Of a DNA stretch of 64,000 nt, positions 20,591-53,230 are shown piece after piece (positions within the stretch are counted from its first letter, which is position 1; every line of letters starts with the position of its first letter). The notes below the pieces were generated by a model. It was not told the origin of the DNA. It searched no databases and saw only the letters and a program-made list of their open reading frames with translations. The DNA comes from Arctopsyche grandis (lineage: Eukaryota > Arthropoda > Insecta > Trichoptera > Hydropsychidae): contig NC_135361.1 in the NCBI RefSeq assembly GCF_051622035.1, positions 26,405,205 to 26,469,204 of the forward strand, written 5' to 3'. The position numbers were made by a program, and so were the translations under genes.

Positions 20591-21549
20591 CCCTTTGGCT
20601 GCTACGAGGTTTTTCAATGTCCAAGCGAAAAATGCTAACATTTGTAATTATTTTGAAAAAAAATAAATATAATATTTTTTTTTACATACTTACTTCGCCG
20701 AACACTCGTAATTTTTATAATACTTTATATACATTTTTAAGAAGCAGTCGTGAACTCGTGCTCTCTCTTTCTGTCTTGCTTTTACATGCGTGCGTGCGAA
20801 AGAGATACCTACATATATACACTAAATAAGTTTTGACGATTGTTTTCCGAGGCTTTATTCTTTTCAATAATCTATTTTTAGATATGGATGTATCCTTACA
20901 ACATGCGATATATTCGAAACAGGTAGCGGTCTCTCTCTCTTTCTTTCTTGGTTTTAATTGTGTACGTATGAGCGAGACACACAAGGATGCGAAGTTTCTA
21001 ATAATCAAATAATTTTTCAACATGTATCATAAACATTTTGTATGCATTTCAGTTGCATTTGATTGATTGCATGAATTCGTGACGTCTCGTGACCTATATA
21101 ATTGAAAGCGGATTTCTATTGTTTTTTGCCATTTATTTTAACTCTGCAAAATGATATCGGACAGTGAAAGTGATGAAAGCGAAATAATAGCTCCTCGCCG
21201 AGGAACTCGACAAATCAGCAGCTCTACTGATTCTGAAAATGAATTTATCGATAATAATCAATTCCCAAGTAATAACTCCTTATATGACATTGACAACGAA
21301 CCCGAAATTTACTTTGATGATGAACCCGAAATTGAAGAGCTTTTATTTAAAAAATTGATAAATATTTATAAAGCTTGATTGAAAAATAAATATAAATACG
21401 TATATAAAAAAAATGTTTCGTGCCACTGATGCGCTGGTGGCTCAAAGAAAGTATTGAAATACGACAATTAATGACGTCAACAACGATCGTCGTAGCAATC
21501 TTCGCCGATTTCAAAACAACGATTTATCGTTGTTGTAGCAGTCAAAGGG
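20591..21549 (+). mobile_element. 959-bp non-autonomous piggyBac element, copy 1
   Basis: TTAA duplications (20587-20590, 21550-21553) abut inverted termini CCCTTTGRCTGCTAC, the classic piggyBac arrangement. The inverted copy at 25388-26346 has exactly the same length and only a handful of base differences by eye. It retains a 75-codon reading frame (21151-21378) that looks like the N-terminus of the transposase, followed directly by a stop. It is thus probably an internally deleted derivative of a full piggyBac. Confidence 0.92.
21151..21378 (+). CDS. Truncated piggyBac transposase N-terminal peptide, copy 1
   Basis: 75 aa, strongly acidic, starting MISDSESDESEI and rich in Asp/Glu/Ser, with DNEPEIYFDDEPEIEELLF near the end. 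piggyBac transposases commonly start with such an acidic region; the DDE catalytic domain is absent. The peptide is identical in copy 2. Whether it is translated is unknown. Confidence 0.6.
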   Translation: MISDSESDESEIIAPRRGTRQISSSTDSENEFIDNNQFPSNNSLYDIDNEPEIYFDDEPEIEELLFKKLINIYKA

Positions 21550-22821: not shown

Positions 22822-23035
22822 CAACTTTTAATATGGAATGAAATGTGACAATTTTATCAACAATATGCATATATTTCAAATAAATATCGTGATATTTTTC
22901 ACAAATAAAAGTTTTTGTTCTACATTTAATTATTTAAATTTAAAAGAAATTTTCAAATACACAAACTGTTATGCAAACACATTGATCATTTACGAATATC
23001 TGGATTTTAAAATAATATTTAAAAGTTGAATTTTG

Positions 23036-23290
23036 GATGGTTCGGTGATTACATTTCAAATTTAAATCGCTACCATGATAACCGCCGCTACGAAAATCGC
23101 TCGCGTGAGTCTCTTATCACACGAAAAATCGTCGCACAGGAAAATTGCCGTAAAGAAAACTGCCCAAATTTCGTCAAAAAAAGCATTTGCTCAGCAATAT
23201 TTGGGCAGTTTTCTGTACAGCAATTTTCTTGTGTGACAGGAGATCCACGCGAGCGATTCACATTTGAGATGTAACCCGTTTACCATTTTG
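23036..23290. repeat. Foldback MITE
   Basis: Arms including AAAATTGCCG ... AAAACTGCCCAAAT and the mirror ATTTGGGCAGTTTT ... CAATTTTC, with an outer GCTCGCGTGAG/CACGCGAGCG pair. The ends read GGTTCGGTGATTAC and GTAACCCGTTTACC. Confidence 0.65.
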
Positions 23291-23699
23291 GATATATGAG
23301 CTGTTATATTTTAAAGTGGCGGAAATCCAATTTTCAGTTCCAAAAACACACAAATTGTTATCATTTGTCTTAGTTCGACATGTCTAGAATCTAGGAAACG
23401 CAGAATAAGTGTATTACAGGCCACCACTATTTAAAAATATTGTCAATCACAAAACATTTTATTCAATGTTTTACGAGATATTTCTCGAAATGAAGAAAGG
23501 TGGCTTTCAATTATAACGACTCATAGAATTATTTTCGACGTTCACCAAACAGGGAGCATTGCATATAAATAAACGAGACGCACTGAATGTAAGCACGTGA
23601 CGTGTAGCATTACACAATTAGCGACGACTAAACTACTGTGGCGCATAAATATTCATTTTAATTATTAGATTTTTAAAAGTTAATTTAGGTTCAAATAAG

Positions 23700-23908
23700 A
23701 AATATACGATGCAATAAGTTGCACAATAATCTAAAAATTAAAATCCAGCTTTGCGGCTTTGGGGCTGGATATGATATTTTTTGATATGACAACACAGGCA
23801 GTTGCCAGAATGTCGAGTGAATAGGCGCGATCGGATGCGGTTGGCGTTTGGCAGTTGAGGTCGCACGGCAGGGCAGGGGCAGGGGCAGGGGCAGGTGCTT
23901 GGAGTGCG

Positions 23909-23943
<35 letters not shown>

Positions 23944-23977
23944 TCGAGGAGTCTGAAGAGAGAACAGAGGAGGGGTC
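23700..23977 (+). promoter_or_regulatory. GC-rich upstream region of MED28
   Basis: GC-rich sequence with GGCAGG (about 23870-23896) and GAGCAC (about 23905-23940) tandem hexamers immediately precedes the MED28 start codon. It is probably 5' leader and promoter. The ORFs crossing it on both strands are repeat translations. Confidence 0.4.
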
Positions 23978-26900
23978 ATGACGGCTCCCTGCGGCAACCT
24001 CGTCGAGGAGTTCGAGGAGTCTTTCCAGGTGACACCCGATCTTCCACCCCACCAATTTACCCCTGCTTCGTTCAATTATCGACTTTATAGCGTTACGCCA
24101 GAAGGCTCAATATCGCGTAGCACCGAGTCGTTTGACAACTCAATCATAAACCTAACCTCATTTCTCCTTTGTCTTTACTGTGATTTTGTCAGTTGATTGA
24201 ATTAAATCTTTACAGTCATGTTTGAACGTATTAACCAATCAAGAAGCTGGACCGTGCGTCGAAAAAGAAGAAGTCAAAGTGCAAGTCGAAAGGTCAGTAT
24301 ACTATAGATTTTTTTTTAAATCCTGATATGGATGTGTTCGTTTCGACCAATTACTAGATAATATTTATTAAACTCCAAAAAACTGGTAATTGAAAAAAAT
24401 AAAGTACAATAAAAAGTCCCGATAGATCATTAAATTTTTCTAAATGATGATAATTTTTTATACTTGTTAAGTTTCACATGGACTTACATTTACCAGTATT
24501 ATTATAGCATCCGAAGACTTATTGTTATTACAAAAGATTTGTATAATACAGATTTATAGATTTGGCGCGTCAAATGGAAGCGTTCTTTCTTCAGAAAAGA
24601 TTTTTACTCTCGGCACTGAAGCCAGAGCTTCTCGTCAAGGAAGACAACGACGGACTGCGAAGTGAACTCGCAAGGAAGGAAGAACTCCTGAAGAAACATT
24701 ATGACAAAATCGCCGTATGGCAGAATCTACTAGCAGATTTACACGTACGACTAACTTCAAATCAAAACATGGATTCAAACCTACTAACGGGTCGTAGTGA
24801 TGTATAATTTTTTAAATCGGTAGGGCTATGCCAAATGCAGCGTGCCGGCAGCGGGTACTCCGACCGGCACCGGCAGTGGCCCAGTAGCGTCTCCGGCCCC
24901 ACCTTCGACCACACCCCAATCGCCGATGCAAGTGATGCAACCGCACCAACAACACAATCCCATGCAGGTTTGTACGAGTCGAGGTATTCATTCGACACCT
25001 TGCCAATAGTCCAAGGAACCTCTTAATTTTTAATATTATACAGACCCAACTTCAGATGCAGCATGCAGCGGTGGCGGCTCAAGCTCAACAGCTTCAACAA
25101 CTGCAGCAGCTGCATCAACAGCAGCATCAGCAACAACAGCAGCAGCAGCACGTGGCAGCCGCCATGCAGCAACAGGTACCCAATTTACACCGACACCAAT
25201 CTCCTTCACGACCGATGCACAGACGATAGTCCTTCTTTATTCATCCGGTCATAAACATTTCACATTTGTGCCTTATTAGTATTAATTATTTTGAAATTGC
25301 TTTATATTTTTATATAGTGAGATTTCTTTACTATTCAATTTAAAAAAATATGAGGCTTGTATATATTATATGATAGATTTTATTTAACCCTTTGACTGCT
25401 ACAACAACGATAAATCGTTGTTTTGAAATCGGCGAAGATTGCTACGACGATCGTTGTTGACGTCATTAATTGTCGTATTTCAATACTTTCTTTGAGCCAC
25501 CAGCGCATCAGTGGCACGAAACATTTTTTTTATATACGTATTTATATTTATTTTTCAATCAAGCTTTATAAATATTTATCAATTTTTTAAATAAAAGCTC
25601 TTCAATTTCGGGTTCATCATCAAAGTAAATTTCGGGTTCGTTGTCAATGTCATATAAGGAGTTATTACTTGGGAATTGATTATTATCGATAAATTCATTT
25701 TCAGAATCAGTAGAGCTGCTGATTTGTCGAGTTCCTCGGCGAGGAGCTATTATTTCGCTTTCATCACTTTCACTGTCCGATATCATTTTGCAGAGTTAAA
25801 ATAAATGGCAAAAAACAATAGAAATCCGCTTTCAATTATATAGGTCACGAGACGTCATGAATTCATGCATTCAATCAAATGCAACTGAAATGCATACAAA
25901 ATGTTTATGATACATGTTGAAAAATTATTTGATTATTAGAAACTTCGCATCCTTGTGTGTCTCGCTCATACGTACACAATTAAAACCAAGAAAGAAAGAG
26001 AGAGAGACCGCTACCTGTTTCGAATATATCGCATGTTGTAAGGATACATCGATATCTAAAAATAGATTATTGAAAAGAATAAAGCCTCGGAAAACAATCG
26101 TCAAAACTTATTTAGTGTATATATGTAGGTATCTCTTTCGCACGCACACATGTAAAAGCAAGACAGAAAGAGAGAGCACGAGTTCACGACTGCTTCTTAA
26201 AAATGTATATAAAGTATTATAAAAATTACGAGTGTTCGGCGAAGTAAGTATGTAAAAAAAAATATTATATTTATTTTTTTTCAAAATAATTACAAATGTT
26301 AGCATTTTTCGCTTGGACATTGAAAAACCTCGTAGCAGCCAAAGGGTTAATGTAAAAATTTTTACCGTTTGGTAGATTTGTAATATGAGATAGTCAGTAG
26401 AAAAATATTGAGAAGACTCCTTTTACGCTGACTGGTCTTGTATTTTTTGTTTTAGTTGTAAAATTATTCTATATTATTACATAGATGATTTTTGAAATTT
26501 ATTTAAAGCAGTAGATTTATCCCAAAGATTATTTGTGTCCAAAAACTGAAAAAAATATATCGATATTAACGTTGACGTGTTCCTACCTATATGCATATTA
26601 TTTGTTATATTTAGTTATTATTTTCAGAACTGATTAGTGTTTTTATCTTATGTTAATTGTAATTTATTTACATTTTAATATAATATTAGTTGGGTTATAT
26701 CGATCTACATATGTATATGTAATATCATTTAATAGCATTATACTTCATTTCATTTACGAAGACACTTCAAGGATAGATTTTCGCCAAATGAACAATTTAA
26801 ACGTCCATTTTATAAAATAAATGTGCATTTAAAAAAAATTTTGTACATTAAAAAAAGTTTCTGTACATTACAAAAAATTTGTGTTCATTTATACATGACA

Positions 26901-29900
26901 GATACAGATTGCATTAGAAACTTGGCTTTGATCATTGAAAAAAATATCTGCTACTTTAAACGCATATGTTTGCTACTTAAATATATATAACAATGACCCA
27001 AAATACGAACCGACAACGACCAACGCTTCTCTCTACTGGATTCCTTCATTTTTACTCTTCGGCTTGTGACCTTGGCTTCTACTCTACGACCTGACATCAT
27101 CATTCCTATTCATACATAATACGTAAACAAAAGTAGACACTTGACAGTTGATAGTTATCAATAGCGGAAGACTGCAACGTTGCCACTTTTTACCTACCTC
27201 TTATTGTATCTATTCTAATGCTAAAATCTATTTTTTCGAATGATCGTTTTATATTTTTTAATGGTCACTTTATAATGCCAAAATATTTTATCCGGTGCAA
27301 AATACGAGATAGTTTAATGCACCGAAAATAATGCACAAACATTTTTTTTAAGATACAAAGTATTTTTCTCAATGTACAGTTAAATCTTACCCATTAACAC
27401 TATGGTGGCCGCTGACTCATATTTGTATCATGTTGGGTGCACAACGCTTACTGGCCGCTGATACATATATGATTCACGACTGCGCGAATATATTTTTCGT
27501 GCAGAATATATTTTTCGGTCCGCTGATATATATGCGGCCACAAACGATTGACGCAAACGTTATACTAAAATATATCAGCAGAGTGATACAGTTAGTGAAG
27601 TCGTAAATCATATATGTACCAGTGGCCACTAAGCGTTGTACACCCAACATGATACAAATATGAGTCAGCGGCCGCCATCGTGTTAATATAGATAAAGTAA
27701 AATGGAAAAAAGTCAATGCATAAATAAAAATAAATCATTTCAATCACTTCAAACATCTACGCTGTTAAGTTAAATAATGAACTTTTTTAGTTCACATACT
27801 GTGTTCATAGACAAATTGAGCGAATAACCAGTGCCTTCATAAACGAAATTTAGTATAGCTAATGCTTGTATCAACCAATCAAAACTAATACAAAGCACAT
27901 AAAAAATTTGCACATTATTTACATCCTCAAATAATTCATTAAAAACTTTTTTTTTATATAAGATTTGATTGGTATGTGTAAGGCTGTTGCAGTAATTCAC
28001 ACAATTACGATTCCTGATCGTAGATTTATCACATCAACGATCATTAGATTCATTATTAAGTTCAAAGTTGGACTCTCTTGTTATACAAGTTGACACGTTC
28101 ATATGATTTCAAACACCGTATGATCGCACCGAGGAACTTAAATAACCACGTGTTCCATATCTACGATCAGGTTTGTCTAATTGTGACCGCGACAGCCTCG
28201 GTCCACACAATTGCATGTTTTATTGGCATATTCGGGAAAACATTGTTATACCATTGTCATATTTTTGTATAATATTAATGAGCAACAAAAAATCATGTTT
28301 TTTTACGTACCGGAGCGGGGACTAATCAATCTTTTCTAAGTTTGACCAGTTGAATTCGAAAATGACGATGATTTTTGTTTCTTCTCGTTTATGGGATGTG
28401 AGTGTTTTAAAAAATGAGCATTTTTACAAAATTTAGGCTTTTGCGGTGTTTAACTCAAAATCTAGTATTGCTGTGCCAAAAGTGAGTTTTGGAATCAATA
28501 GTCTGATGTTTTTTCTATTGATCGTATTTATTTAAAACTAGTATTTTTACCCAGCTTCGCTCGGTATTTGTATTATAAACCGCTTAAACATTGCCAATCT
28601 AATAGTAAACATTTTATTAAATTTATTTAAATATTCATTTATTTTTCTACGAACCAACAATAGTTACAACGTCTCTTTTGAAAATATATATTAGATGCGT
28701 ATAATTATTTATCTAGCAAATTTTTAGTCAAAAATATTTTTTTTTACACATTTTTCTCTGGAGCATTTATTAGGCCAGTTTTATATTTTATTAAGATTAC
28801 AAGGATTTTTTTTTAATTTCAATATCTGTATATTTTTTTATCTGAAAATATTTTGAACAACATTTTTTAACTCAATTTAAAATCATTTATCGCTAGAATT
28901 AGTACGTTTAGACAAAATAAAATTATATAAAAAAGCAGTATGTATAAACGTGGTTATTAGCGAAATAAAACTAATAATATTACGTGAAAAAAGTGTATTA
29001 TTGATTTTTAAAATTGGTTAAATATAATTATCCACTTCATTGAGCACCCCAACACTAAAATTCCTATAAAATTCTAGAGATTTAGGGACAACTCATTATA
29101 TAAAGTGATTTAATGCCGTCATGCATAATTGGGTGCCGATACGCGTGACAGTGCCGCCACATGGGCAAATGTACGAAATCATGCGCCGGGCTGAATGTGT
29201 TAAAACAATTAAAAATCACAATAAATAGAAAAAACATCTGACCGTTGATTCCAATACTCACTTTGGTACAGCAATACTAGATTTTGAGTTAAAGACTGCA
29301 AAAACCAAAAAAATTGCATATCTCATTAACGAGAACAAACTAAAAAAAACATAAAATGTATCAAACTTACTAAAGATTTCTTAGTCTCTGCTCCAGTATT
29401 TTTTTTTGTCGCTCAGTGTAATCGTTTGTTGTTTTTTTTGTTGTTATTACTTTTTAGTAACTAATTAGTTGTTTAAAAAAATATGTTTTCATCAAAATAT
29501 TGTTTGAATCGAGTTCAAATATATTTTATTCAATGGTTGTATCTATCATTATTAAATGTTAAAACAGTATTAATTCAGCTAATTGAAATCGTATCGTGGC
29601 CAAAATTTATATTATATTTATATAGCGATAAAACGGTTTTGGGAGGCCATAGAACCGCCCACTTCATATTCGTTCCGCTTTCACATTAAAAATAACACTG
29701 CGGTACCTGTAGTCTTCCAAAACCAAATGAAGGCCAACGTCTGTCATTGTGACAACCTTGTGCAAGACCAAATAAATCGTAAATTAACTTAATTCCATAC
29801 TATTTATATATTCTAGTCGATTTTTATATGAAATACATGCTGTATTATTTAATTTCATTAATAACAGGGCTTTTCACATTTTATGCTTAGTAAATTTCAC

Positions 29901-30750
29901 AAACACATATATTCTAACAAATATAATTGATTTCATCCATTTCACAAAATCACCTACGTATGTTTTTTTAATACATTATATCGCTCCAAAATTCAACTAG
30001 TACGCTTATTTATTACTGTATTGTGTTTAATGTCCAATTAAACGCACATTAATAAGTACAATTATTATACGCTTTATTAACACACATTTACATTTTAATT
30101 TGTATGTGTTAATTTTATTAATACATTTATTTCACAAATTTGATTTTTGTTTTATTTTACTTTAAAAACCATATAACCACCTGCTTTACTAATAATGTAT
30201 TTTATTTTAATTTTTGTTGTTGCTGTTGTTGGTTTGGGGTATATCATGTAGTTTGCTGTTGAATTTTAGTATTTTGTGTGGTGTTTTTACCTGTTTTTTT
30301 TTTTTTTTTTACGATGCAAATATACAAAAGTTTTTTCAATGAAAATTTAAGCTGGAGAAATTGAAAAGAAATCTGTATTCGGGCAAATAAACAATTTGCT
30401 GTTGTTTTTTTTTTACTTGCTAGATGTCAGGCGCAGTTCCGGGAATGTATATGCAACAGGGACCACGCGGAAGTTTCCCGCAGCCAGGATCACTCCAAGG
30501 ACCGTTAGCCTACCTTGAAAAAACCACCACCAATATAGGTTACTATTTTTGCATTATGATATGAGGCTGTTGGCTAAGAAATGCTGTAACTCTCAACGTA
30601 AACATCAGATGTGTGCTTATTGTTTGTAATTGTGGGTTACACCATTTCTCCGCTTGCTGATTGATTGTTTGTTTTTATTTCTTGTGTGACGTTTTAAATA
30701 ACAAATGGAAATTTATAGATTTAGTCGGAATGGGCGATGGACGCAGGTGA
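23978..30750 (+). CDS. MED28: Mediator complex subunit 28
   Basis: Seven exons: 23978-24028, 24216-24292, 24552-24744, 24824-24967, 25044-25175, 30424-30538, 30725-30750. Total 738 nt, 245 aa. The N-terminus MTAPCGNLVEEFEESFQ and the core RFIDLARQMEAFFLQKRFLL ... LVKEDN ... KHYDKIAVWQNLLADLH are the MED28 fold (about residues 1-106). A Pro/Gln-rich linker with a polyGln run follows (exons 4-5). The end, LQGPLAYLEKTTTNI, matches the conserved vertebrate ending (SLAYLEQASANI). MED28 is a Mediator head-module subunit acting in RNA polymerase II transcription in the nucleus; human MED28 is 178 aa, and the extra length here is the Gln-rich linker. Intron 5 (5.2 kb) holds a piggyBac copy and several MITEs. 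The UGA stop at 30748-30750 is followed in frame by an Arg-Gly repeat (separate entry). Confidence 0.92.
25388..26346 (-). mobile_element. 959-bp non-autonomous piggyBac element, copy 2, in MED28 intron 5
   Basis: TTAA duplications (25384-25387, 26347-26350) and termini identical in type to copy 1, in opposite orientation. Length is the same to the base. Visible differences from copy 1 include one Ala/Val codon change in a non-essential frame and a few single bases. The high identity indicates recent amplification. Confidence 0.92.
25559..25786 (-). CDS. Truncated piggyBac transposase N-terminal peptide, copy 2
   Basis: 75 aa, the same acidic peptide (MISDSESDESEI start) as copy 1 at 21151-21378, without the catalytic domain. 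It lies antisense inside the MED28 intron. Confidence 0.6.
   Translation of the reverse strand: MISDSESDESEIIAPRRGTRQISSSTDSENEFIDNNQFPSNNSLYDIDNEPEIYFDDEPEIEELLFKKLINIYKA
26351..27393. other. MED28 intron sequence, nothing recognised
   Basis: AT-rich sequence. No conserved frame, terminal repeat or RNA gene is evident. Confidence 0.4.
27398..27682. mobile_element. TTAA-flanked MITE with about 80-bp terminal inverted repeats
   Basis: TTAA on both sides (27394-27397, 27683-27686). Left CACTATGGTGGCCGCTGACT and right (reverse) CACGATGGCGGCCGCTGACT stay nearly identical for about 80 bp. piggyBac-superfamily by the target site. No ORF. Confidence 0.85.
28279..29416. mobile_element. About 1.1-kb element with long inverted ends
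   Basis: Left TGAGCAACAAAAAA ... GGAGCGGGGACTAA and right (reverse) TGAGCGACAAAAAA ... GGAGCAGAGACTAA. A further mirrored block with CTCAAAATCTAGTATTGCTG lies at 28450-28500 and 29255-29300. The interior is AT-rich and carries part of another repeat (29036-29206). No transposase visible. Confidence 0.65.
29036..29206. repeat. Truncated TTAA-type MITE, related to 31099-31262
   Basis: It shares CACTTCATTGAGCACCCCAA, TTTAGGGACAACTCATTAT and the end CGCCGGGCTGAATGTGTTAA with the copy at 31099-31262, but lacks the left terminus. Confidence 0.65.
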
Positions 30751-31098
30751 CGGGGGAGAGGGAGGGGCAGGGGGCGAGGCCGTGGCAGAGGTAGAGGCCG
30801 CGGTAAGTACTTCATGATTTTTAACTACTTCACTTCACTTCAGTTATTAGTCACTTGAACTTAAACAATACAATAGCGAACAGGAGCACCATAAAGAGCG
30901 CAAAAAGTTCTCAATATCGGGTAGTTCTTATTTTTTAACTTTAAAATATTCAAAAGTTAACAATTGTAACACATTATTTGCCTTATGAAACATATAATTC
31001 CTGCACCAATATGGTCGTAAAAAGGGAAAATGTAGATCATGTTGTTTTAATGCATACTGTAAATGCACAAAAGCTTCTGTAAATGTTTCAATGCTTAA

Positions 31099-31262
31099 CA
31101 CGTTCAACCCGGCGTGTACCACCAGTGGCCACGTGAATAGTGCTATAGCAGACTATAATTTTACGGTTCCACTTCATTGAGCACCCCAACACTAAAATTC
31201 CAAAGATTTAGGGACAACTCATTATGGGCAAATGTATGAAATCATGCGCCGGGCTGAATGTG
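31099..31262. mobile_element. 164-bp TTAA-flanked MITE
   Basis: TTAA at 31095-31098 and 31263-31266 encloses termini CACGTTCAACCCGGCG and CGCCGGGCTGAATGTG. piggyBac-type by the target site. Confidence 0.8.
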
Positions 31263-31319
31263 TTAATCTGGTTTTTTTGCGGATGATATTCGTGTTGAAT
31301 TTATCTACTCATTAAGGTT

Positions 31320-32560
31320 ATGTAAAAATGGTTATAACCAGAGGACAGATACTAATTAGGGCAATCTCAAAATACAATACACGTTCCAACACAGAGAAGT
31401 GTAATATTAATAGAAGTGGCTTTAGGTGTTATATTGTTGTCAAGTGACGATTGTCCACAGACAATCCTAAATAATTTTAGCATCAGTCGTATTTGACGGT
31501 TGGTGCTCGACGTATGTCCGATAAAAACTTCTCTGTTCGTTTTATATTACTCGCAAGATGGGCAAGCATCGGTAAAAAATGCACAATAAACAACATGGGA
31601 TACATTTTTATAAGTAAATTGATCCGATTGTATTCCGTGCGATGTAGCGTATTAGACGTATATAGCGTATAGAGACGTACCACGTAAAATTGAAAACAAT
31701 TATTTATTCGTAAGGGCCCCTCTATTCTTATTACATCTCTCTGTTCCAACAGTGTTGAAAGCAAGAGGGCAAAAAAAAGGTTTTTCTATGAAGCTAACAA
31801 TAGCCATAATGCCAAAAAACCATATTGCCTTAATGAGTATGCATCCTCTAATTATAACTAGACAATGAAAAATAACAATATACGTTCCAACGGTGTTGAT
31901 TGCAATAAAAAAAGGTTTTCTATGAAGTTGACAGTAGCCATAAAGTGAAAATACCATATCGCCCTAATGAGTATCCGTGCTCTGGCTATAACTAGACTTC
32001 ATATGATCATTAGGGCAATGGCAAATAGCAACACACGTTCCAACAGTGCTGAAAACAAACAAAAAAAGTTTCTATGAAGCTAACAATAGCCATGGCTCCA
32101 CAAATCCATATTGCCCTAATGAGTATCCGTCTTATAATTATAACTAGACATCAGATGGTCATTAGGGCAATGACAAATAACAATACACGTTCCAACAGTG
32201 TTTATTGCAAGAAAGCAATAAAGAAATATTTTTTTATATGAAGCTAACAATAATCATATTGCTACCGAGTATCCATCCACCTGATGTTCAGTTATAACTA
32301 GATATCAGGTGGTCATTCAGACAATGGCAAAGCAAAAAAATGGAAAGCAAGAGAACAAGAAAAAAGGTTTTTCTACGAATTTATCAATAAGCATAACGCC
32401 GAAAAATCACATTGCACTATTGAGTATCCATCCATTAGTTATAAATAGACATTGAATGGTCATTAACGCAATTGCGAATAACAATACACGTTCAAAAAGT
32501 GTTGATTGTAAGAAAGCAATAAAAATATCGTTCTACAATATCAAAAATAACCAAAACGCC
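31320..32560. repeat. Minisatellite of about 125-bp units, interrupted by a hAT-type MITE
   Basis: Repeated words are ATTAGGGCAATGGCAAATA, ACACGTTCCAACAGTGTTGA, GGTTTTTCTATGAAGCTAAC and AATGAGTATCCRT. About seven diverged units are present, becoming more degenerate to the right. The array lies in the intron between 30802 and 33409. Confidence 0.8.
31392..31743. mobile_element. 352-bp hAT-type MITE inserted in the minisatellite
   Basis: Ends CAGAGAAGTGTAATA and TATTACATCTCTCTG are inverted repeats flanked by a perfect 8-bp duplication TTCCAACA (31384-31391, 31744-31751). The duplicated word is itself part of the minisatellite unit. It is the inverted relative of 18652-19004. Confidence 0.85.
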
Positions 32561-33408
32561 TCATTATTAAGATCATTACTTGCAATAAGTTATCTAATGA
32601 ATTGAAATTTTTAATTAATTTAATTAATGATTTATATTCAAAGCAAATTGCATAATGACCATCCTATGTCTAGTTATAACACAATTTGTTTGGAGAATAA
32701 TAAATTAACAAGAAAGCATTCGATATTCAGATCCCCCATTGAGACCCAAGAATACACTATTGTTTAATTTGGAATTACCTTTAACCCAATTATGGAATAT
32801 TATGAGTAGAGGTAGTACCAGAAGCGTGCCGTTTATTGTTCAATTGTTGTAAATCCTTTGTAAAAAAGGTTCGGCAAACCTTTAACAATGCATTTACAAC
32901 ATTTGAACAATAGACAGCCCCCTCAGGGTCCGGGCTCTAATTATGAGGAAACTAGTTTTGTGCTCGTTGATATTTCAACGGGTGGTTTTTGACACGATGA
33001 AAATTTCAGGCTGTATTATAAGTAAAAACTACCTTCCTACATACATATTATATAAACAATAGAAAAATTAATTTTCGATAGATGGTGCTAAATGCTCGTG
33101 AAACTATTTTCCTAGAGGAAATATTGGTAGCAAACAGTATATATGTATATATACAGGATTTTCTTGATTCGTTATTATAATCGTACATTTTGTTGGCAGT
33201 GTTTTAACTGTGACGTACATATGTCGAATCGAACCGACTATTATACTACGGCGAGCGTTATCGCAGACACACAAAATAGCGCTATTGTATATATGTATGA
33301 TGATTTTGACTCCTAAAATCTCTCAATAACCGAGTTCGATTACATTGACTATTGACTTTGATCGATCCCATGAATGCGGTAGTAATCCACTGTCTATTTT
33401 GATTTCAG
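32561..33408. other. Intron sequence before the RG-extension exon, nothing recognised
   Basis: AT-rich sequence without a supportable frame. It ends in the acceptor TTGATTTCAG at 33399-33408. Confidence 0.4.
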
Positions 33409-33458
33409 GTCGTGGAACATCCCCTGAGTACGGCGGCGGTAGTATGACGCCACCATGA

Positions 33459-36253
33459 TAGATACCCCTCCCTCGATCGTGGGCATCGCCGTTGGCGATT
33501 CACACCCACGCTCTTCATTGCACCCATCAATCTGACCCTCGCACATACTATCCTTACCTATACGGTGAAGAATTCGATGCCATCAATGACGCCGATAGCC
33601 TCTCATTCTTGGACGATTATCTCTACTATATTTAATCTATTTATTATTTGGATTATTGCACACACACACACACACTCATAAATGGACGATTAATTTTGAA
33701 CGTGTTCTTGTAATATCCGATTGATCGATTTGACTTGTGTATTATTATTAAGCTACGTTTTCACGGACAGTATTAGAAATGAGATCGACGAATTGATGAA
33801 TAATATCGTCATTGGTGTTTTTGAGTGATGTTTATATTGCTAGTAAGTCCAACCGGCACTTCAAATAGCAACACTCGTCAAGGACAAATTTACATCATTA
33901 ACACACTGATTATTAATTCGTCAAATGCCAGTTCTATTTTCTAAATATGCTGTGACGACAAACGTGGTGGGAATTTTGGATATTTTTCTGCGATTTATTT
34001 ACTTATGTGAATTTTATTTATCGTGAGGAATTTTTTTCAATATGTTTTGTAGTAAGTATTTTTCAAAACAGTTGTAAATATAGTGTTATGTATTAGTTAT
34101 ATGAAAAGGGATTAATGAATTTGTTGTGTAGACGTGCGATTTATTTCATTATTGACCTGATGATGAATGAGTTGCAATATGGAATTTAAAAAAATCTATT
34201 TTTGATAAAATGTTAGGTTAGTTCTTTGCATTCTTGTGAAGTTTTGTTGCAGATCATACGGAAACCTTACAACGCCATCACAATATTGTACAATACTACA
34301 AAGATACCGCGTTAAAGTCGACATTGGCGTATCAAATTGGTCTTTGGAGGCTATACGACCGCCCAGTTCAAGGTCAAGTGGGCCATTGGTTCCCAATATG
34401 GACGAATTTCCATGATGTTGACAATGAATGTACAATTTTAGGATTAGATTCGCCTTTGATCTAAAGACAAGGCATTTCTATATCCACAGACGTTACTTCA
34501 TTGAAACTTGCCTAACGTTAGTTGTCATTGTGACACCTTCGAATCTGATCTATCATTATTTTGTTTGTATGTCAGAATCTCGTACGTAGTGTTACACCAT
34601 TTTATTTAAATTCTCTCTAACGCAAATCTTTATACTCCCACCTTAGTATGTACTTAAGACAATTTAGGAACAATTTTATTTTTATTCGATTTCTATTGTA
34701 GATAGCTTTTATTTTTTTGCATTAAGTTTAAGTGTGATGTAAATATTTTATTAATATATTTAGATATTATTTTTTACTATTATAATTTTATTATATTTAT
34801 ATTTTGTAAAAAGAAAATAATTTTGATAGGTTTGCTTTGTATATATATTTTTTTCTACTTTTTGCTATTTAAATTTGTGCCCAGGTATGAGCTGGCTGAG
34901 TGTTAAATCTCAATCATTTTACCTAATTTTTGTATAAATAATATACGTAATTTCATTTAAAACGTGGATAACAAAAAAAAAAAGGACAAAAGTGTAAAGA
35001 AGAGGTATCATAAATGGCTTACTCTTGATATTCAAATTCTGTATGAATATTCAATAATAACCGAATTAAATAAAAATAAAAATACCCATATATTGTACTA
35101 TGAAATTGAAATAAATTGTTATAATGGAACGGGCGATTTTCATCAATGAAATAAATAAAACAAGCATTACATTGTTGAAATGTTTATTTGTATTATGTAT
35201 TTATATATATTTTTCCCATATTCCGACGTGGCAGCGTTGCACATATACAAAAGAATATAAGCGCTACTCGCCGCACGTGTGCAGTCATACAAGCATGTAG
35301 TTTATATTAGCAATGCAAATACACAGATTATACGATTACTGAACACCTTTTTTAAGTACTCAACAAGACGAGGAGATCCTTCGGCGTCCGATAACCTTCT
35401 GGACACAAAGGCGGTCCGAGGCCGAACGATCCCGCTCCAAAGTAGACAGAACAGAGCGGCACAAAATAACAAACACAAAAGTCATATAATACATACAATA
35501 AAATAAATTCCATAACAATAGTGATATCCATTATGATCACAGAAACGATATAAAATCAACCGAAAGAAAGAAAAAATGTGCGCTTTGATAGTTTCATTGT
35601 GAATGTGTTTATAATAATGAGCTAATTACCCCCCAACCCCCCACCCGAATATATTGGAACTGATTACACAAAACCACACCATCGTCGTCGATGATTCAGT
35701 CGTTTAATATAATGGTTATGTTTCATTGGAGATCATGTTTGAATCATTTTGTTTCAATCGCTTAAACCTAACGTTTCATTTTTGAGCTGGACTCGATTTT
35801 ACACGTCGAATGTGTATATCTTTAAACAGAAATACAATTCATTAAATTCTCTACCACACACACATCGAATACGTTTAAAATTAAATAAAAATCATATATA
35901 TACATATATGTGTATATATATGTATATAATAGTAGTAAAATTTGTATACTTTAAAAACAATAATTTTGGGATTTCAATAGAAATTCATATACATATAGGT
36001 ACGTACACATATAAGTTAAGAAGTAAAATTTCAAATCGGCTTCGAATCTACATACATACATATATATCGATCGATTTATAAATTTTGAGCGTCACTTTTG
36101 TCTAATGACTAATATTTCGAATTACTTTTTTGCCTTGCACAAAAAGAGACGATACGCCATTGAAACTGCCCTGTGATAACAAGGATCGATCATTTTGCCA
36201 GCGGGAGAAATCTGGTCGCAATGCGATGAGTCAGTTTCGTTGGAAAGCTCATT
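33459..36253. other. Convergent 3' region between MED28 and tankyrase
   Basis: No gene is seen. The left part is probably MED28 3' UTR and the right part tankyrase 3' UTR. A (CA)n run lies at about 33660-33675. Paired AATAAA signals lie at 35150-35159 (+) and 35183-35188 (-, seen as TTTATT). A fragment at about 34345-34440 resembles 29640-29700 (AGGCCATAGAACCGCCCA-like words) and may be old repeat. Confidence 0.4.
35150..35188. terminator. Opposed poly(A) signals between the convergent genes
   Basis: AATAAATAAA on the plus strand and, 30 bp further, TTTATT (AATAAA on the minus strand). This would end MED28 and tankyrase transcripts with overlapping tails. It is inference from motif and orientation only. 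Confidence 0.35.
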
Positions 36254-39200
36254 TCAAGCCGCTTGTTCGACCGGTGCACCCTCTTCCGGCTTAACGATCT
36301 GATAAGTGATAAGATATTCCGGATAAGCCTGCGAAAAAACAATGCGTTATTAACACGTGCCTCTTATCTGAACGTCGATACACGATTTCGTACACACCTG
36401 TTCGCCTCTGTAAACAACGTATTCGGGGAAACAGAGTCCACCTTGACTAGGCCGACCGGCTACCGAGTGATGACCGGGTGGAGCGTGAGCCATCTTCATC
36501 GCACTCAACAGTACGAATGACCGACCGAGACAGACACGACACAGTAACAATTGTCTGAAATGAAAGCGAGTCATTCAAAAGTAAATACATTTATTAAAAG
36601 AATATATATATTAATAAAACTTGATGATAAAATACCTATGACAGGAATAACAACTCCTATCTTTATGAGCTGGACATCCAGTTCCTCCACCCATTCCATA
36701 TACATATTGATTACTCTTTGAAGAATGTTCAGCAAAATATATACCAGCCCCAAACATACCACCTATAAAATAATTATAATATACATGTGGAATGAAAAAA
36801 ATTATACGAGTAGTATCTACATATATATCTTAATTAATAATAATGATTTTTTTCATTTCCAACTACACAGTACCTATATAAGCGTGTCGTTCATCGAATC
36901 CCTTTTGAACTATAGCGTTTATAAACGGTGATCCGTGGAATAACATTCTTTCACCGGCGAAAGTTGAACCACCAGGAGATGCAGTTCCTACATTAGAACC
37001 TAAACCGGCTTCTTCGGCTATTTCTTTTCTACGATGTCTATATCGTTCCCATAGTCGCCTATTTTGAACCTTTTGAATCTGTAAAAAAAAATGTTGAAAT
37101 AATCAATTCGCGGTTATATCCACATAAAAAAAACAATTCATAAAATAAAAAAATGGGATGTGACCAACCCACGACTTTATCTATGTATTTGAGGAATATA
37201 AGAAGGATAAAAAACAATTCGACAATTAAACATACATATACGTTCACACATACCGGCTATGAGAGCATTTTCGATGCAAATTGAGCGCAAATGTAGGGAA
37301 ACTTACACAAGACAAAAGTTATACTTTTGTTAAGTTGTCAGATTTTATTCGAAATTTTTTTATTACTTAAAATTACTATAATTATTATACACATTAAATA
37401 TCAAGAAAATAAAATAATGAAATATTGTTTTAAAAAAAATTACTACTTCAGGTTTACGAATTCTGACCAAAACCTTATCAACTCACTAAGTTAGTACATA
37501 AATAATACAAATATAAATTTTCAGCTTGAGACATTCAAGGGTGTGAAAAAAATCGTGTTGTCACAACATTTTTTACTTTTCCCACTTCCAGTTTATTAAA
37601 TTTAGTGATTTTTTTTTATTTTCATCCCATTACAAGGACTATATTTGAATGTTTTCGTGAAAAGCGCACATACATATTTAAGGGGAGGTACCATTTCCAG
37701 TAAAATTAAACATTTGAAAAAAAATAACGTATTGTTACGTACACTACCGAGTAAGTGCAAACGGATTAAGCCGAGTAGCATCCCAGAGACTGTGTGACCG
37801 TTATAATTGGTTTCAAGGATTATCTCCAGACTAAGTGCAAGTAGGCTAAACAATGGCCACCGAATTGGCCGCTATTGGTCCCTTCTCAGAAGAGACCGAT
37901 AGCGTGGGACTGAGTGTCGTGGGAATACATATCCGGGTACATGCCTAAACAATAGGGAAGTAACTGGACGTCGAAGATGCCCTGAGCGACCTATCCGTTA
38001 TAAGGCGGTACTTAGGCGATATCAAGACATTCTGGGCGGAGCACTGGCAGTGCGTGTATCTCCTTAATCACCAATAAATGCTGTGACACGACTTTGGCCT
38101 TTTACTCGGATCCTCCACCCACCCCTACGCAACAGTATCAATACTAAGTTTCAGTTTGATAGGACGAACGGTGTTCAAAAAATACACAGACATACACACA
38201 TTTTTTCTAGATCATGAAAACGTGATCAGCGATCGATTCCGAGTTCGAATTTTAGTATGATCCTAAAACTTCATCCATTGTTACTACATACATATAGATA
38301 AAATAAAAATACTCACTCTAATAACATTATAATGAGAAAATATTCCTCCAGCATGACCGAAATCTCTGTGGCTTCGGACTGAAGCTTGCATTTCAGCTTC
38401 GACTACGATAAACTCAGGATCTTCCCTAGTCAATTCGGCTACCATTGTACCGGCGTACATTTCTATAAATATAATAAACAACATTTTACTATGATACATA
38501 ATAAGTACTATAACAATCGAATGCAAGTTAAAATACCTGGCGTAGACAGCTTCATTTGAACGCCCTTGATTAACCGGTGACGGTGACCATACGCCGATAC
38601 ACCGGCCTGTTTCAAATCTTCGTGCGACATTTCACCGAGAATATCCAAAGTTATCTGTTCCCGTTGCAACAATTCCGTCAAGTGTTCCAAACCCAGACTA
38701 AAATAATCAAAACAAATTAAAACTCGCAAACTATGTGAATGCATTGCAAAAAAATAATTCTCCATACCTAGATAAAAATGAGTGAAGACTTTCTGTCTCG
38801 CCGAACGGTGAAGCTGAACCCGCAGCTTGACCGCATTCAGATCTAGATCCCAAAGAATAAGTTGAAGGTGCACCAGAATTATAAGTCAAATCACACAACT
38901 GAAAACAACGACTCGTATAAAACATATGTTATATATATATAATTAAACCGATTTATGTATGTATGTAGGTTACCGGCAATGAAAGCGTGATTGTATTTCC
39001 ACTAGGCATATGAACAGTTTCGAGTTGAGGAGTCGGAGGTGGTGGAATCGGCGCTGCAGAATGTAATAAAGCTGGCAGAGGCGGAGGAGCTGGTGCTGCA
39101 CCTAGCATAGCATCCTGTAATAGACTACGAACATCATCGGCAGCGCTCAGCTCCAAAGCCGTCTGACCTTCTTGATTTTTGAGGAATGGATCAGCACCGT

Positions 39201-42200
39201 GAGCCAACTAAACAAAACCATTATTTAATGCTAATTCTTAAATAATACTATTGTAAAGAAACTGATCGAGATATTTCAGAACCATCTTCTTCTCAAGATA
39301 CATACATACATATGTAGTCAATAATGGTTATACTTCTTGATCACAAATCTTCTAATGGAAGAAAATTCTAAAATATATCAACCAATAATGTATAAAACAT
39401 ACCAGAAGAGCACATAATTGAGTGCGTCCTTTCTGAGCAGCTTCATGCAGCGGAGCAAATCCCCACTTATCGGTAGCGTTAACCGAAGTACCACTTCGGA
39501 TCAACAAAGCGGCAACGTCAGCATGTCCATAAGAAGAAGCGTTGTGCAACGGAATTAAACCACCTTTATCACGAGCGTCCACTTCAGCCCCACGTTCCAC
39601 AAGCAATTCGGCAACTTCTAAATTATTATATCCCGCTAAAACAGATCAAACAATAATTAAAATACCACACACACAAAAGCGACACATTCAATTCAAGAAA
39701 ACTATCTTCAAACCTGCGAGATGCAACGGAGTGGAGTTTCTACCATGAGCATCCCTACAGTTGATATTCGAAGGCGTTAATAAACGTCGGACTCGAGGAA
39801 GATCTCCACGCTTGGCAGCATCTAATAAAGCTGCATCACCACGTAAAAGATCAGCCGTTTCGGCGTCTCCGTCTCTAGCTAGCTGAAGCGCTGTCAAACC
39901 GTCACGATTACGACGCGACGGATCGGCCCCGTGCTATCATCAAACAATAAAAACAGATGAAAAATAATCCTCTACACATAGCATACATCACATCAACGAC
40001 CAACAATACCTTCAAAAGAAGCCGAACAATATCAGCCTTTCCTTTAGCAGCCGCCTCGTGTAACGGTGTAAATTTCCAAAGATCGGCAACATTCACACTA
40101 GCTCCAGCTCTAACGAGCAGTTCCGTCACTTCGTAATGCCCGTACGAGCACGCATTGTGTAGCGGTACAAGTCCACTATAAAACGACACTTAAATGACAA
40201 ACACTTCAAATATCTAATTTACAAGAAATATTTATAAAAAAAAAACCTACCCTTTATCCTTAGCATGAACGTCAGCACCGTGTTGCAGAAGCAGTTCTAC
40301 AACACGTACTCGATTATATCCAGCGGCGAAGTGTAACGGCGTGCTGTGACGGCCGTCAAGATCTCGACAATTCACTAGATGAGGACGAGCGCGTAGAAGC
40401 CGGCGAGCAGTGTCCACGTCTCCAGCTCTAGCAGCTTCGAGCAAACGACGCTCAGATTCTACACAGCCTCCGACTCCATCTTCGCTACGAGCCTCTGCAA
40501 AAATCAAACCAAATTATTAATCGAAAGCACATATTAGATTAAGATTCATTGAGAGAATTCTTCGGCCATATTACACAAATTTTATGTATAGTTTTACCTT
40601 GAAGGATTGGAGCAGCACTGTCTCCAGCGAGTTGCAAAGCAGTGTAACCTTGAAGGCTGATCAATTGAGGATCAGCTCGATGAGCTAATAACAATCGGCA
40701 TGCAGCAGCGGCATCTCGTCTTGCACATCTATGCAAAGCCGTTTGGCCGAGGCCGTCGAGCGCATTAACTTTAGCACCTTTAAATATAAATTAGAATTAA
40801 TAAGTATCAAAATTTATATTCGTTTTAGATGTTTTATAGTGATTTTCTCACCATTTCTAAGTAATACATCCATAGCATCTAAATGGGAATGATCGGCAGC
40901 TACATGTAATGGCGTCAAAAAGTCTTTATTTTTCTCATTCAAATGAGCGCCCTTTCTAATCAACATTTCAAGGACCTAAAAACAATAAAACTTATTTTTA
41001 TTTAAATTTTTAATGATAAATATACATCTTTTTGCAATTATAATGACCTGCTTTCTTTTCGGATAAACGCTACCGGCAGCACAATGCAAAGGAGTATCAC
41101 CCGTGTAAGGATGGACGAAATTGACAGCACTAGTAGACGTTAACGGAGTCGAAGGTACAGTCGGTGTCGGAGCCGGCGGTGCCGGACTACCTCCAGCCGG
41201 TGAACCAGGCCTTAACTCAACCGACTGCAAAACCTTAAAAGAGTCAAATCAACATTATACAACGATTACATTGAAAAAATAATACAATAACAGATCATTA
41301 CGGGTACTTGTGTAGGCGTAGAAGGCCCAGGTGTGAGAAGAAGACACGCAGAATGACTGGACAGTAATTTTTTAACCCTAGCGGAGTCGGCCATACGACA
41401 CGCATCCAAAAGACAGTGACCTCTATACTCCACTGAAACAAAAATGCAACAATTTATACAACATTCAAATAAAATCCAATTAAAAAATTGATACACCGGT
41501 TTACTGACCTACGAGCCGTTCTTGCAATTCTCTAGTCGGAGCTACGTCTATTGCAGATTTGCCGTGACAGTTTAATTGGGTAGGGTCGGCGCCTTCACTC
41601 AACAGCAACGAGCATACCTATAACAATCAAACGTTACTTTTGCGTAAATATTTTTAATTATGTAATGTAATCATCAATACAATACCTCGACTCGGGATTT
41701 GCTAGCTGCTTCGTGAAGAGGAGTGAAAGCCCACAAGTCGTTTGCGTTGACGTTGGCTCCGTGTTTAATCAACATTTCGGTCACTTCAAAATGTCCATAA
41801 GAACATGCATTATGTAGTGGTACTAAGCCCCTATAAAAAATAAAAACATTATATAAATATAATTAATTTTATTAAATTCAACATATTTAAAATTCAACGA
41901 TGACTCTCAGTATTGTATTTGATACAATGAAAAAATACTTCAAAGATGAGAGCCCAGCCACATTGTGACTTTGTTGCGCGACCAGATCAAATGTATGCAG
42001 TTGTATGGAGCATGCCACACCAGGCAACTGACCAGTTGACCAAACTACAATATGAAATAGCTTGACCAACCAGATCGGTTGCCGGCGTTGGGTCTGATCA
42101 CGGTAATTTTACTGCTCGAGTGACTGGCGCGATCCCTCAAAATGTATAGCATTGTATTGAGAGGTGCCGCACTCGGTAATTAGTTGTCGGCGACTACATA

Positions 42201-45200
42201 GTAAAAAAAACTATGAACACTGTTTCGTCACGTATTGGAAACTCGTATAGGTATTAGTGAGTGGATTCTTGGTCGCTTCTGGTTGCCCGAGTTGGCTGAC
42301 CAAGAGTGACCACGAGCAGCTACGCTTGGGCAACAAAGTCACTCCTTACAAGTCACCCGGTGTGGTCTGGCTCTAAATGTTGCTGCACACAATGCAAGTA
42401 GATAAACAAGTAGAGTAGATAAACACATAAAAAAAAAGAGCTAGAAGAACTCCAGTACGCCAAATCTGTATCACAGTGTCCCATCACGAGGCTCACCCCC
42501 GCGGTATTTTTGGTGATATTTTATCCCTGTATAGGTTTGACAGTGATCGATAACGGTGATTCCCATATTTGAAGAAATGCAAGAGAAACCCGTCGAAATA
42601 ATAAGATCGTACGAATCAAAACTGACATGAAGATATGCCTCTCACTGCTGGAGTCCACGTACGCGTCCCATGCCGTACTTTTGAGTGTGTTCATCGAGAA
42701 AACCTATCAAGTAGCCGTACCGAAGTTAGATAAATAGTATGGATTCACTTCATAAAATTGACCTGCAATATCAACATCAAGCCATTGCTTGTGCGCGCTC
42801 TCTACTTGTGGCATGACACGACCCCCACAACTGAATTAACGACCCGAATTCCTGTCAATTTGTAAAAACGTTCAATTCGACATGCTAAATTCGATTCTCT
42901 ACTCGACATCTTTACCAACATAGTGCGTAAGCTCCGGCACTAACAGAATACAGATCATTTGAGAATATTTTAGGATATACCAGGCAAAAACAACTGAACT
43001 TGCTTGGCAACTTGTAAAAGTTCATCTTCAACATTACTGAAAATGCACATTCTGACATGCTTCCCTGCTTACATTGTATACAGCCATCTTAGAACATTCT
43101 GATATGACTGAAAAATACAAGATCATCCTGAATAGAACATTACCCTTTATCTTTAGCGTGCACGTCTGCACCGCGTTGCAACAGCAAACGACAAGCACGA
43201 GCACGATTGTAGCCCGCTGCTAGGTGTAAAGGAGTACTCCGACGTCCATCAGCCGCGTGACAATTTACAGCGAGCGGAGTCAAAAGTGCACCGAGTCGTT
43301 CTTCACAACCGGCACGAGCCGCTTCCAACACTTCTTCTTTACGATAGTCACCTAAAAATTAAATTAAATTACATCCACACATACAACAAAAAGGATCCGA
43401 GACTGAGAACTCTATATATGTACCTGTTAACACTGGTCGGGTTATAGTATCTGCAATGTCGAGTGGAGTTTTGCCTTCGGTATTTCGAATGTTTGGATCG
43501 GCGCCGTGTTGTAAGAGTGCTGTAATATAATATCATAAATTTTATTTACGTGTATGCCGTATTGAAATGGAATCTTTGGTACTGTAATAACATTACCGAT
43601 GCAGACGTCGAGTTTTCCTTTGGCCGCAGCTTCGTGCAACGGTGTATAGTTCCAATTGTCGCGAGCTGAAGGCGGTGCCCCGGCCGCTAGTAGCAATCGA
43701 GCTACGTCTGCGTGTCCGAAGGAGCAGGCATTGTGCAACGGATGAAGGCCACCGTCGTCCCGAGCGTGGATCGAAGCACCGGAAGCCAACAGAAATTCCA
43801 CAACGTCTCTTCTTCCATACCCTGTAATATTATACGGAATGGTAATTAGTTCGATGCGGAAGTACATACGTATGTAAGTCGGTTTCATAATGATATTATT
43901 GTTCTAATTGGAATACGAAACGTATGTAGCTATTACGCATATATTAGTGATTTGCTAAATTACTGCATACGTTTCTGTTGTTTTAATGCAAAAGAGCATC
44001 AGTAGAGACACGTATTTTGGGCATTTTGCTATTAATGCTTAATTGATGCTAAAATTCGGAATAAATTTATAAAATTAATAGACAATTTAGAAGGGCTTCC
44101 TATCCCTTTGTCCATTTATTATGTGAAGAAATCGAGGGGATAAAACAGAGCTTGCAGTTTACCATAAACGGTGTTTTTCCTGTACTACATTTTACTACTG
44201 TAAACAAAAGAAAACAGTTGGAGCTGTGTATCCAAAAGGCTGCTCAAAAAAGCGTCTTAAAACTAGACTCGCACTCAAGACTAAATGAGACAAATCTATT
44301 CCTACGAACATTGAGTAAACTATTCAATCCATCTGTGGCAGGTACAAAATCTAATATTAATGTTAAAGAAACAGTTTTGTTTTTTAGAAACCTGCCATTG
44401 TTTAATGTATTAACAGAGGCTTAACGTTTGGATATCAGCACTTTTTTAGACAATTGATAGAGAATATGAAAAGTGAATCCACAATGGATATATTGCTATT
44501 ATTGATGGCAACAAAAATTAAATATGAAGAGTTTGGTTGTGCAGCTCTAAAATCTATTTGGTGTCCCATCAATAGTGTGGACGCTGAAAGGTATTTTAGT
44601 AAATGCAATATAATTGTTACCGATCATTGTCGCACGAATCTCAAAAAAGAATCTGTAGAAATATGCTCCATGTTCGAGTTTTAATAAATTTAATTGGTAT
44701 TGTATTTATATTTTTTTCATTGTAATTTTAATTCCAAAACATATTTGAATTTTTCTATTATTTTTTAATTGTTGTGTTGTCTTTAAATTGTATAAAACGC
44801 TAAAATGCAAAATGAAAATGCTAAAATTGACAAAAATAGATGCCCAAAATACGTGTCTCTAAGCATCAGGTGTATTTTTAATGTATAAAAATTGAAATCG
44901 TCTGTATGTATGTGCCGTCCAAGGTTATATCTTTCATATATTTAATTATAAAAGCGATATATTATGTTAAATTTTCTGATATGAATTACTATGTGCATAT
45001 GATGTGCGATTTCATTACTAGAACATTTGTTTTATCAATTTGTAAATACACACGGTATTGTTATAATAATAATTGTTATTATTAATTACAAAACATTATT
45101 TATTGTTGTTTGGTATATATAAATTGAATGTATTTGCACATGTCTTAGATAAAATCTATTATGCCTTATTTAATAGTAAACATTTTATACATTCAATATA

Positions 45201-52999: not shown

Positions 53000-53230
53000 G
53001 GCTGCGGTTGCGTGAAGTCTGCGGTTGCTATGTAGGCTGCGATGTGGGCTGCTATGTAGGCTGCGATGTGGGCTGCTATGTAGGCTGCGGTGTGGGCTGC
53101 TATGTAGGCTGCGATCTGGGCTGCAATGTGGACTGCGCTGTTGACTGCTGTCGTGGCGGCTGTTGGTTGTTGTGGAGGCTGCACTGTGGGCTGCCGTGTT
53201 GACTGCGCTGTTGACTGCTATGAAGGCTGC
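53000..53230. repeat. 24-bp tandem repeat in the LTR element interior
   Basis: GGCTGCTATGTAGGCTGCGA-type units repeat about five times, translating on either strand to short periodic peptides (GCYVGCDV or AAYIAAHI). Confidence 0.75.

Follow-up and report, generated by a model that had tools for sequence, protein, structure and literature searches.

A 64,000-nucleotide (nt) stretch of the genome of the trichopteran Arctopsyche grandis (NCBI RefSeq assembly GCF_051622035.1, contig NC_135361.1, positions 26,405,205 to 26,469,204 of the forward strand), hereafter the window, carries on its + strand a complete gene model for the Mediator subunit MED28, in which the stop codon, a UGA, is followed in frame by an arginine–glycine (Arg-Gly, RG) repeat that continues across a splice junction and may be reached by stop-codon readthrough. 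The spliced frame of the eight exons is open (Table 1), and the product up to the first stop comprises 247 residues. It matched the Pfam Med28 family (PF11594) with an E value of 1.2e-29 and 103.2 bits against a cutoff of 29, the match covering residues 7-103 of this product, and a PDB search returned three distinct MED28 sequences (E 4.8e-22 to 8.2e-22), which we take to be human. When the Gln-rich linker was omitted from the query, the C-terminal motif qg.layle...ni aligned through residue 172 of the 178-residue MED28 chain 7emf_1, beyond which six residues remain in that chain; in the insect protein, 10 residues separate the NI of the motif from the UGA. Because the motif lies near the chain end and the NI-to-UGA distance is only these 10 residues, the UGA appears to stand near the ancestral end of MED28. 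The 26-residue MED28 C-terminus used alone as a PDB query gave no match up to an E value of 10. In sections of PMC5464003, MED28 termini are otherwise described as non-conserved across animals.

Joining position 30802 to position 33409 produces the frame ...NIDLVGMGDGRR-TGA(30748-30750)-(RG)x10-TSPEYGGGSMTPP-TGA(33456-33458). An earlier note on this DNA had claimed that an RG frame resumes past the MED28 UGA across a splice, and the spliced frame indeed reaches the second TGA. The GTAAGT donor and the right phase at the acceptor that the note described were borne out, the 30802/33409 junction keeping G-R-G in register over the 2.6-kb intron 7, and the exon junction does lie 52 nt past the stop. 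Two details needed correction. The note counted nine Arg-Gly repeats, and the count is ten, the ninth spanning the junction and the tenth lying entirely within exon 8; it also had the feature begin at 30724, which is 5 bases too late for an exon 7 that starts at 30719 (an alternative in-frame start is 30725). With ten dense repeats, the tail qualifies as an RG/RGG motif. The frame, the repeat and the splice phase are all read directly from the sequence; splicing itself is what we infer from them.

The variation among the repeats was then considered at the codon level. No two of the nine hexamers starting within exon 7 are identical, and all of their differences from the best ancestral hexamer (14/14) are synonymous: G is invariant in columns 2, 4 and 5, only A and C occur in column 1, and AGN codons are without exception AGA or AGG. 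Under neutral drift from that best ancestral hexamer, the analytic probability of 14/14 synonymous differences was 1.6e-8 to 6.2e-8 for transition weights of 1 to 4. The RG run is also the longest of the nine dipeptide runs with at least five units found in six frames of the whole window, and among these runs it shows the lowest similarity between hexamers, with a mean identity of 0.66 versus 0.76-1.0. The other eight extend from 0.76 in an Arg-Glu (RE) run up to 1.0 in phases of a CGAGCA array before MED28, an array that serves as a same-window control and whose DNA is near-identical (0.87-1.0). The interval between the first and second stops thus carries a coding signature, obtained here from repeat variation within one sequence. 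Since this variation is purely synonymous, in a run that is both the longest and the most diverse at the DNA level, the codon pattern indicates that the RG frame is selected as protein, now or until recently.

The same evidence bears on the idea that the tail is an ordinary, intron-containing 3′ untranslated region (UTR) in which a purine-rich repeat happens to read as Arg-Gly. Tandem Repeats Finder does list a weak 18-nt array at the tail (75% matches), and two of the three other G-quadruplex (G4) motifs of the window sit in simple repeats (23871 and 59283), but the tail varies only synonymously, unlike the near-identical CGAGCA control array, and the RG repeat goes on in exon 8. We consider this explanation scarcely credible. 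With regard to the arrays themselves, (GGCAGG)n and (CGAGCA)n arrays at 23867-23948 adjoin the MED28 start codon upstream, the former containing a G4 motif. The RE run (59330-59371, + strand; seven units, identity 0.76) has five of seven hexamers different and some synonymous variation, and may be an exon encoding part of an RE-rich protein.

The splice sites around exons 7 and 8 were compared with the other AG sites of the window. The pyrimidine tract of the exon 8 acceptor is good, being equalled or bettered at 92 of the 2994 window AG sites, and among the 426 AG sites in 30850-40000, the one preceding 33409 is the only one that gives a G-R-G continuation. Window-wide and on both strands, seven of 6052 AG sites continue G-R-G: on the + strand, that of 33409 plus four inside the RG segment, and two others on the − strand. 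At the start of exon 7, three AGs within 30717-30746 could open the exon (starts 30719, 30725 and 30747), the first two encoding DLVGMGDGRR and VGMGDGRR, respectively, before the UGA and the third opening another frame (GDGGEGGAGG...) that is stop-free into exon 8. We rejected this frame-shifted reading from the AG at 30745-30746 (GDGGEGGAGGEAVAEVEAAVVEHPLSTAAVV) as a candidate: although open, it shows some non-synonymous differences among its repeats (four residue types versus two).

Splicing could also bypass the stop, either by skipping exon 7, which would join exon 6 in frame to exon 8 and give ...TTTNI-GRGTSPEYGGGSMTPP, or by the use of an internal AG (start 30761 or others), which would give ...NIG(RG)n.... 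The symmetry of exon 7 (84 nt, phase 1-1), its weak acceptor and the good acceptor of exon 8 are in keeping with such a bypass, and enumeration yielded, besides the product of skipping, four internal acceptors that keep the frame. Skipping, however, drops the very exon 7 repeats that bear the selection signature, so it explains the observations incompletely, and the internal acceptors (starts 30761, 30779, 30791 and 30797) are all GAG, are preceded by purine-rich sequence and lie behind earlier AGs. A bypass is hence improbable as an account of the tail, and exon 7 skipping may occur alongside readthrough.

Next, we examined the surroundings of the UGA for a readthrough signal. Type II signals were first described as, in general, a UGA with CGG or CUA directly after it; for most of them a 3′ RNA structure was subsequently proposed, often taking the form of an extended stem-loop that starts about 8 nt 3′ of the stop (sections of PMC3542737); a newer figure for this distance is approximately 6-12 nt (sections of PMC11166343). 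The MED28 stop is a UGA with a 3′-adjacent CGG, and a helix is predicted in the spliced mRNA after a spacer of 7 nt. In this predicted fold, 30758-30767 is perfectly complementary to 33465-33474, forming ten pairs with further helices inside, and each arm's 10-mer is unique on the + strand of the window. Because one arm is in exon 7 and the other in exon 8, 6 nt past the second stop, the stem needs splicing to form. The earlier note had pointed to a leaky UGA-C context. That context is present, and the fuller match, UGA-CGG with a predicted stem from the eighth nt, is the strongest evidence for readthrough obtained here; as a sign of readthrough, however, UGA-C alone separates poorly from a nonsense mutation because five of the ten tail Arg codons begin with C.

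The stability of the predicted stem was evaluated against several controls. The spliced 126-nt element folded at -64.7 kcal/mol (z -4.08), and no dinucleotide shuffle was as good, either of this element (0/200) or of a 124-nt spliced version (0/500). Equally good folds were rare when only exon 8 was shuffled (4/500), when only the 3′ arm region was shuffled (9/1000), when GC-matched genomic replacements were used (2/145, or 2/142 excluding overlaps with the native place), and when codons were permuted synonymously with protein and codon usage kept (11/1000). With native places excluded, ten-nucleotide sequences complementary to the exon 7 segment were present in 5 of 6350 stretches of 100 nt and, among GC-matched stretches, in 2 of 390 (17/6390 and 9/404 with native places included). 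In mRNA folds of 244, 474 and 823 nt, the outer helix had a pair probability of 0.99-1.0. Without splicing, folds of 60, 100 and 150 nt showed no excess stability (z -0.86, 0.13 and 1.17), and the spliced 150-nt fold had a z of -2.96, the z values for spliced lengths of 50-150 nt being computed against mononucleotide shuffles. The predicted stem therefore amounts to support at about the 1% level, short of proof.

Directly past the stop lies a G4 motif; the + strand of the window has three such motifs in all, and the − strand has one. The 6 G-ending codons among the 20 RG codons all fall within the first eight (hypergeometric P 7e-4; P 0.011 for crowding within any eight consecutive codons), and it is these codons that make up the G4 motif; in 3.4% of codon permutations, such a motif fell inside the first 24 nt. 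The clustering of G-ending codons could also be explained by local repeat growth. In sections of PMC3919603, readthrough in vitro reached 1.5%, versus 0.3% background, when a synthetic G4 took the place of the stem of a viral readthrough signal.

Stem and codon crowding are the points at which readthrough can be set against a recent truncation, in which a nonsense change cut a constitutive RG tail and left a fresh relic, perhaps polymorphic or an assembly error. The change would have been GGA to TGA in the repeat register, or CGA or AGA to TGA. As the earlier note stated, changing the TGA to GGA would restore the RG repeat, and this is true, yet it equally fits a recent nonsense mutation: the codon before the TGA is Arg, so that the TGA occupies an expected Gly position, and by the genetic code any one-step nonsense change in an Arg-Gly stretch yields TGA. 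With half of the tail Arg codons starting with C, UGA-C would be expected anyway. Insect mutation rates are near 3e-9 per site per generation, and by our own arithmetic with about 42 nonsynonymous repeat sites, a tail without any use could survive undamaged for as long as ~24 million generations; an intact tail is therefore no proof of present use. Truncation nevertheless leaves unexplained both the stem at type II spacing, whose 3′ arm lies outside the tail (about 1% in several controls), and the crowding of G-ending codons past the stop. A random nonsense hit could strike anywhere, whereas the actual stop is at the first position of the tail, near the ancestral end, and only one of the ten tail Arg codons is CGG. 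On this balance, we think truncation, the main alternative to readthrough, unlikely.

The UGA might instead be recoded in another way, as selenocysteine or by adenosine-to-inosine (A-to-I) editing to UGG, and either route would yield the same extended protein. For editing, the A of the UGA is paired with a probability of 0.95 in a 200-nt pre-mRNA fold, but this falls to 0.31 in a 600-nt fold, and the target A has a 5′ G neighbour, which ADAR disfavours. For selenocysteine, the nine Rfam matches obtained for 23000-38000 at E values up to 5, all weak, included no selenocysteine insertion sequence (SECIS) family, which is weak evidence given the uncertain sensitivity of those models here. We regard recoding of this kind as very remote.

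Together, the UGA-CGG context, the predicted stem, the frame-specific selection signature and the repeat-continuing splice support the proposal of the earlier note that MED28 is a readthrough candidate, and we consider it probable that UGA 30748 is a programmed, partly leaky stop yielding a minor, RG-tailed MED28. Several observations pull the other way, beginning with the fact that this proposal rests on one genome. The stem was spotted after folding five spliced and three unspliced lengths, and the spliced folds of 50, 60, 75 and 100 nt were unremarkable (z -0.17, -1.85, -1.83 and -1.03). Under free synonymous choice, 100 of 1000 sequences folded as well, the G-rich RG segment pairing easily. 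A helix of at least 10 bp with a spacer of 5-12 nt appeared in 35/1000 codon permutations, 58/1000 free synonymous variants and 10/1000 arm-region shuffles; counting both strands of the window, it also follows 46 of 2247 TGA triplets and, where G+C exceeds 50%, 6 of 270, with 2 of these 270 folding as stably. Among 27 TGACGG sites, one, at an unrelated location, has a helix of this kind in unspliced sequence. Codon permutations yielded a G4 motif anywhere in the RG stretch in 30% of cases, and the stem and the G4 share bases and are mutually exclusive. The exon 7 acceptor has a weak pyrimidine tract, equalled or bettered at 2665 of 2994 window AG sites; the nearest AATAAA past exon 8 is at 35069 (ATTAAA at 35065), ~1.6 kb off, and intron 7 contains five AATAAA. 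Finally, none of 431 pattern-matching stretches in viral contigs and none of 584 in prokaryote contigs encodes a MED28 relative, insect genes being unexpected in either.

Beyond readthrough as such, we propose a splicing-licensed switch, a model we hold with evenly balanced confidence: the arms of a type II stem lie in separate exons, only spliced mRNA would pass the UGA, and an SmD1-like RG tail would be added to MED28, so that a small subset of Mediator complexes would carry a handle for RNA binding and methylation. In the programmed readthrough that we consider probable, most ribosomes would terminate at UGA 30748 and produce the ordinary MED28 subunit, while a minority would decode the UGA by a near-cognate tRNA, aided by the 3′-adjacent CGG and by the extended stem-loop, with which a G-quadruplex may alternate. 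The amino acids usually inserted at UGA are Trp, Arg or Cys. The ribosomes would then translate 33 codons past the UGA, through the stem, to a double stop, so that readthrough would add 34 residues, namely one for the UGA, (RG)x10 and then TSPEYGGGSMTPP. As the stem bridges exons 7 and 8, the signal would be present only in correctly spliced mRNA. The tail would be polycationic and probably disordered, and most likely would give a fraction of Mediator an RNA-binding handle or an arginine-methylatable one (by a protein arginine methyltransferase, PRMT, and readable by Tudor domains). Termination without readthrough might expose the mRNA to decay through the downstream junction; in the fly, nonsense-mediated decay depends little on exon junctions.

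If the switch operates as proposed, a cellular gene would possess the UGA-CGG and stem element that the cited papers list for RNA viruses, assembled here by splicing, and Mediator would gain an optional handle for RNA binding or methylation. Conserved insect readthrough genes have otherwise been predicted through many-genome comparison. For MED28, readthrough can be argued from a single genome, the synonymous-only repeat recording selection and the stop carrying a recognisable signal.

Table 1. Window coordinates of the MED28 exons and of the features around the MED28 stop codon
Feature	Position	Strand	Basis
MED28 coding exon 1 (ATG; MTAPCGNLVEEFEESFQ)	23978..24028	+	open spliced frame, GT donor
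MED28 exon 2	24216..24292	+	spliced frame
MED28 exon 3, Med28 domain core	24552..24744	+	spliced frame; Pfam PF11594
MED28 exon 4	24824..24967	+	spliced frame
MED28 exon 5, Gln-rich linker	25044..25175	+	spliced frame; CAG/CAA tandem repeat
MED28 exon 6, conserved C-terminal motif GPLAYLEKTTTNI	30424..30538	+	alignment to PDB chain 7emf_1
MED28 exon 7: DLVGMGDGRR, UGA, Arg-Gly repeats	30719..30802	+	84 nt, symmetric, phase 1-1
UGA-CGG, stop and 3′ triplet of type II readthrough signal	30748..30753	+	sequence; sections of PMC3542737 and PMC11166343
Arg-Gly repeat tail, exon 7 part, continuing into exon 8	30751..30802	+	synonymous-only variation, nine hexamers
G-quadruplex motif GGGGGAGAGGGAGGGGCAGGGGG directly past the stop	30752..30774	+	motif search
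5′ arm of predicted 10-bp helix, from the eighth nt past the stop	30758..30767	+	
Intron 7 donor GTAAGT	30803..30808	+	sequence
Intron 7 acceptor (TTTTGATTTCAG)	33397..33408	+	75% pyrimidines in 20 nt before AG
Exon 8 coding part: G-R-G-TSPEYGGGSMTPP, stop TGA 33456-33458, then TAG	33409..33458	+	
3′ arm of predicted 10-bp helix (CCCCTCCCTC), 6 nt past the second stop	33465..33474	+	exon 8

Elsewhere in the window, near-identical 103-codon open frames at 20715-21026 (− strand) and 25911-26222 (+ strand), with one residue different, represent a repeated element duplicated in inverted orientation, with one of the copies in MED28 intron 5. A tankyrase gene on the − strand, convergent to MED28, extends from 38508 to ~46700, the upper limit being taken from the open reading frame list; it was identified from a SAM domain at 38508-38885, whose best PDB match is tankyrase-1 (6.6e-18), and from one of several ankyrin-repeat open frames (39352-39645), which matches ankyrin models. 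An open frame at 2785-4173 (+ strand) encodes a reverse transcriptase (RVT_1, 1.9e-10) and probably belongs to a mobile element, and 44406-44684 (+ strand) gave a weak match to a hAT dimerisation region (E 0.0041; 17.3 bits, under the curated cutoff of 21.4). At 51159-54256 (− strand), long open frames span tandem arrays whose units measure 12 to 174 bases, with a strong GC skew and ~50% G+C versus mostly 30-40% in the window, representing satellite-like DNA or a repetitive protein.

Among known systems, the type II signals of viruses (alphavirus, tobravirus, furovirus and coltivirus segment 9) share with MED28 the UGA, the CGG and an extended stem-loop about 8 nt on, the furovirus stem-loop being marked uncertain in the type II listing of PMC3542737 (sections of PMC3542737 and PMC11166343). 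Unlike these, MED28 is a cellular gene, and its predicted arms are in two exons 2.6 kb apart, the 3′ arm past the second stop. In Drosophila, 283 readthrough genes were predicted by comparative genomics and 350 events were reported from ribosome profiling; these genes have in common with MED28 a C-terminal extension with a coding signature past the stop, and in drifter (dfr) a proximal stem-loop (+12 to +57) promotes readthrough (sections of PMC3840789 and PMC13170385). Unlike MED28, dfr has a UAG stop and is intronless. Sections of PMC4494051 treat stop codon shifts in yeast and fly, from which no figure is used here. In the literature searched, which excluded most subscription journals, we found no earlier report of MED28 readthrough.

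MED28 itself and SmD1 provide the comparisons at the protein level. The presumed human MED28 shares the Med28 domain and the qg.layle...ni motif near its end, and its 178-residue chain, ending 6 residues past the alignment, leaves no room for an RG tail. Sections of PMC3542376 list Med28 as a PRMT6 partner in a two-hybrid screen, note that it was poorly translated for pull-down and give its methylation entry as 'n.s'. This link is only a hint because vertebrate MED28 has no RG tail. As a PDB query, the RG tail gave 11 matches up to an E value of 10, including the GR20 dipeptide repeat, SNF2, ribosomal S10 and uS5, SmD1 and eIF3; we take these as a likeness of composition and claim no homology. 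Four of the 11 are SmD1 chains (E 1.4-2.6, composition only), and SmD1 has a C-terminal tail of RG repeats like that of MED28. SmD1 carries its RG tail constitutively. Unlike SmD1, MED28 is a Mediator subunit, and its tail would be optional and capped by TSPEYGGGSMTPP.

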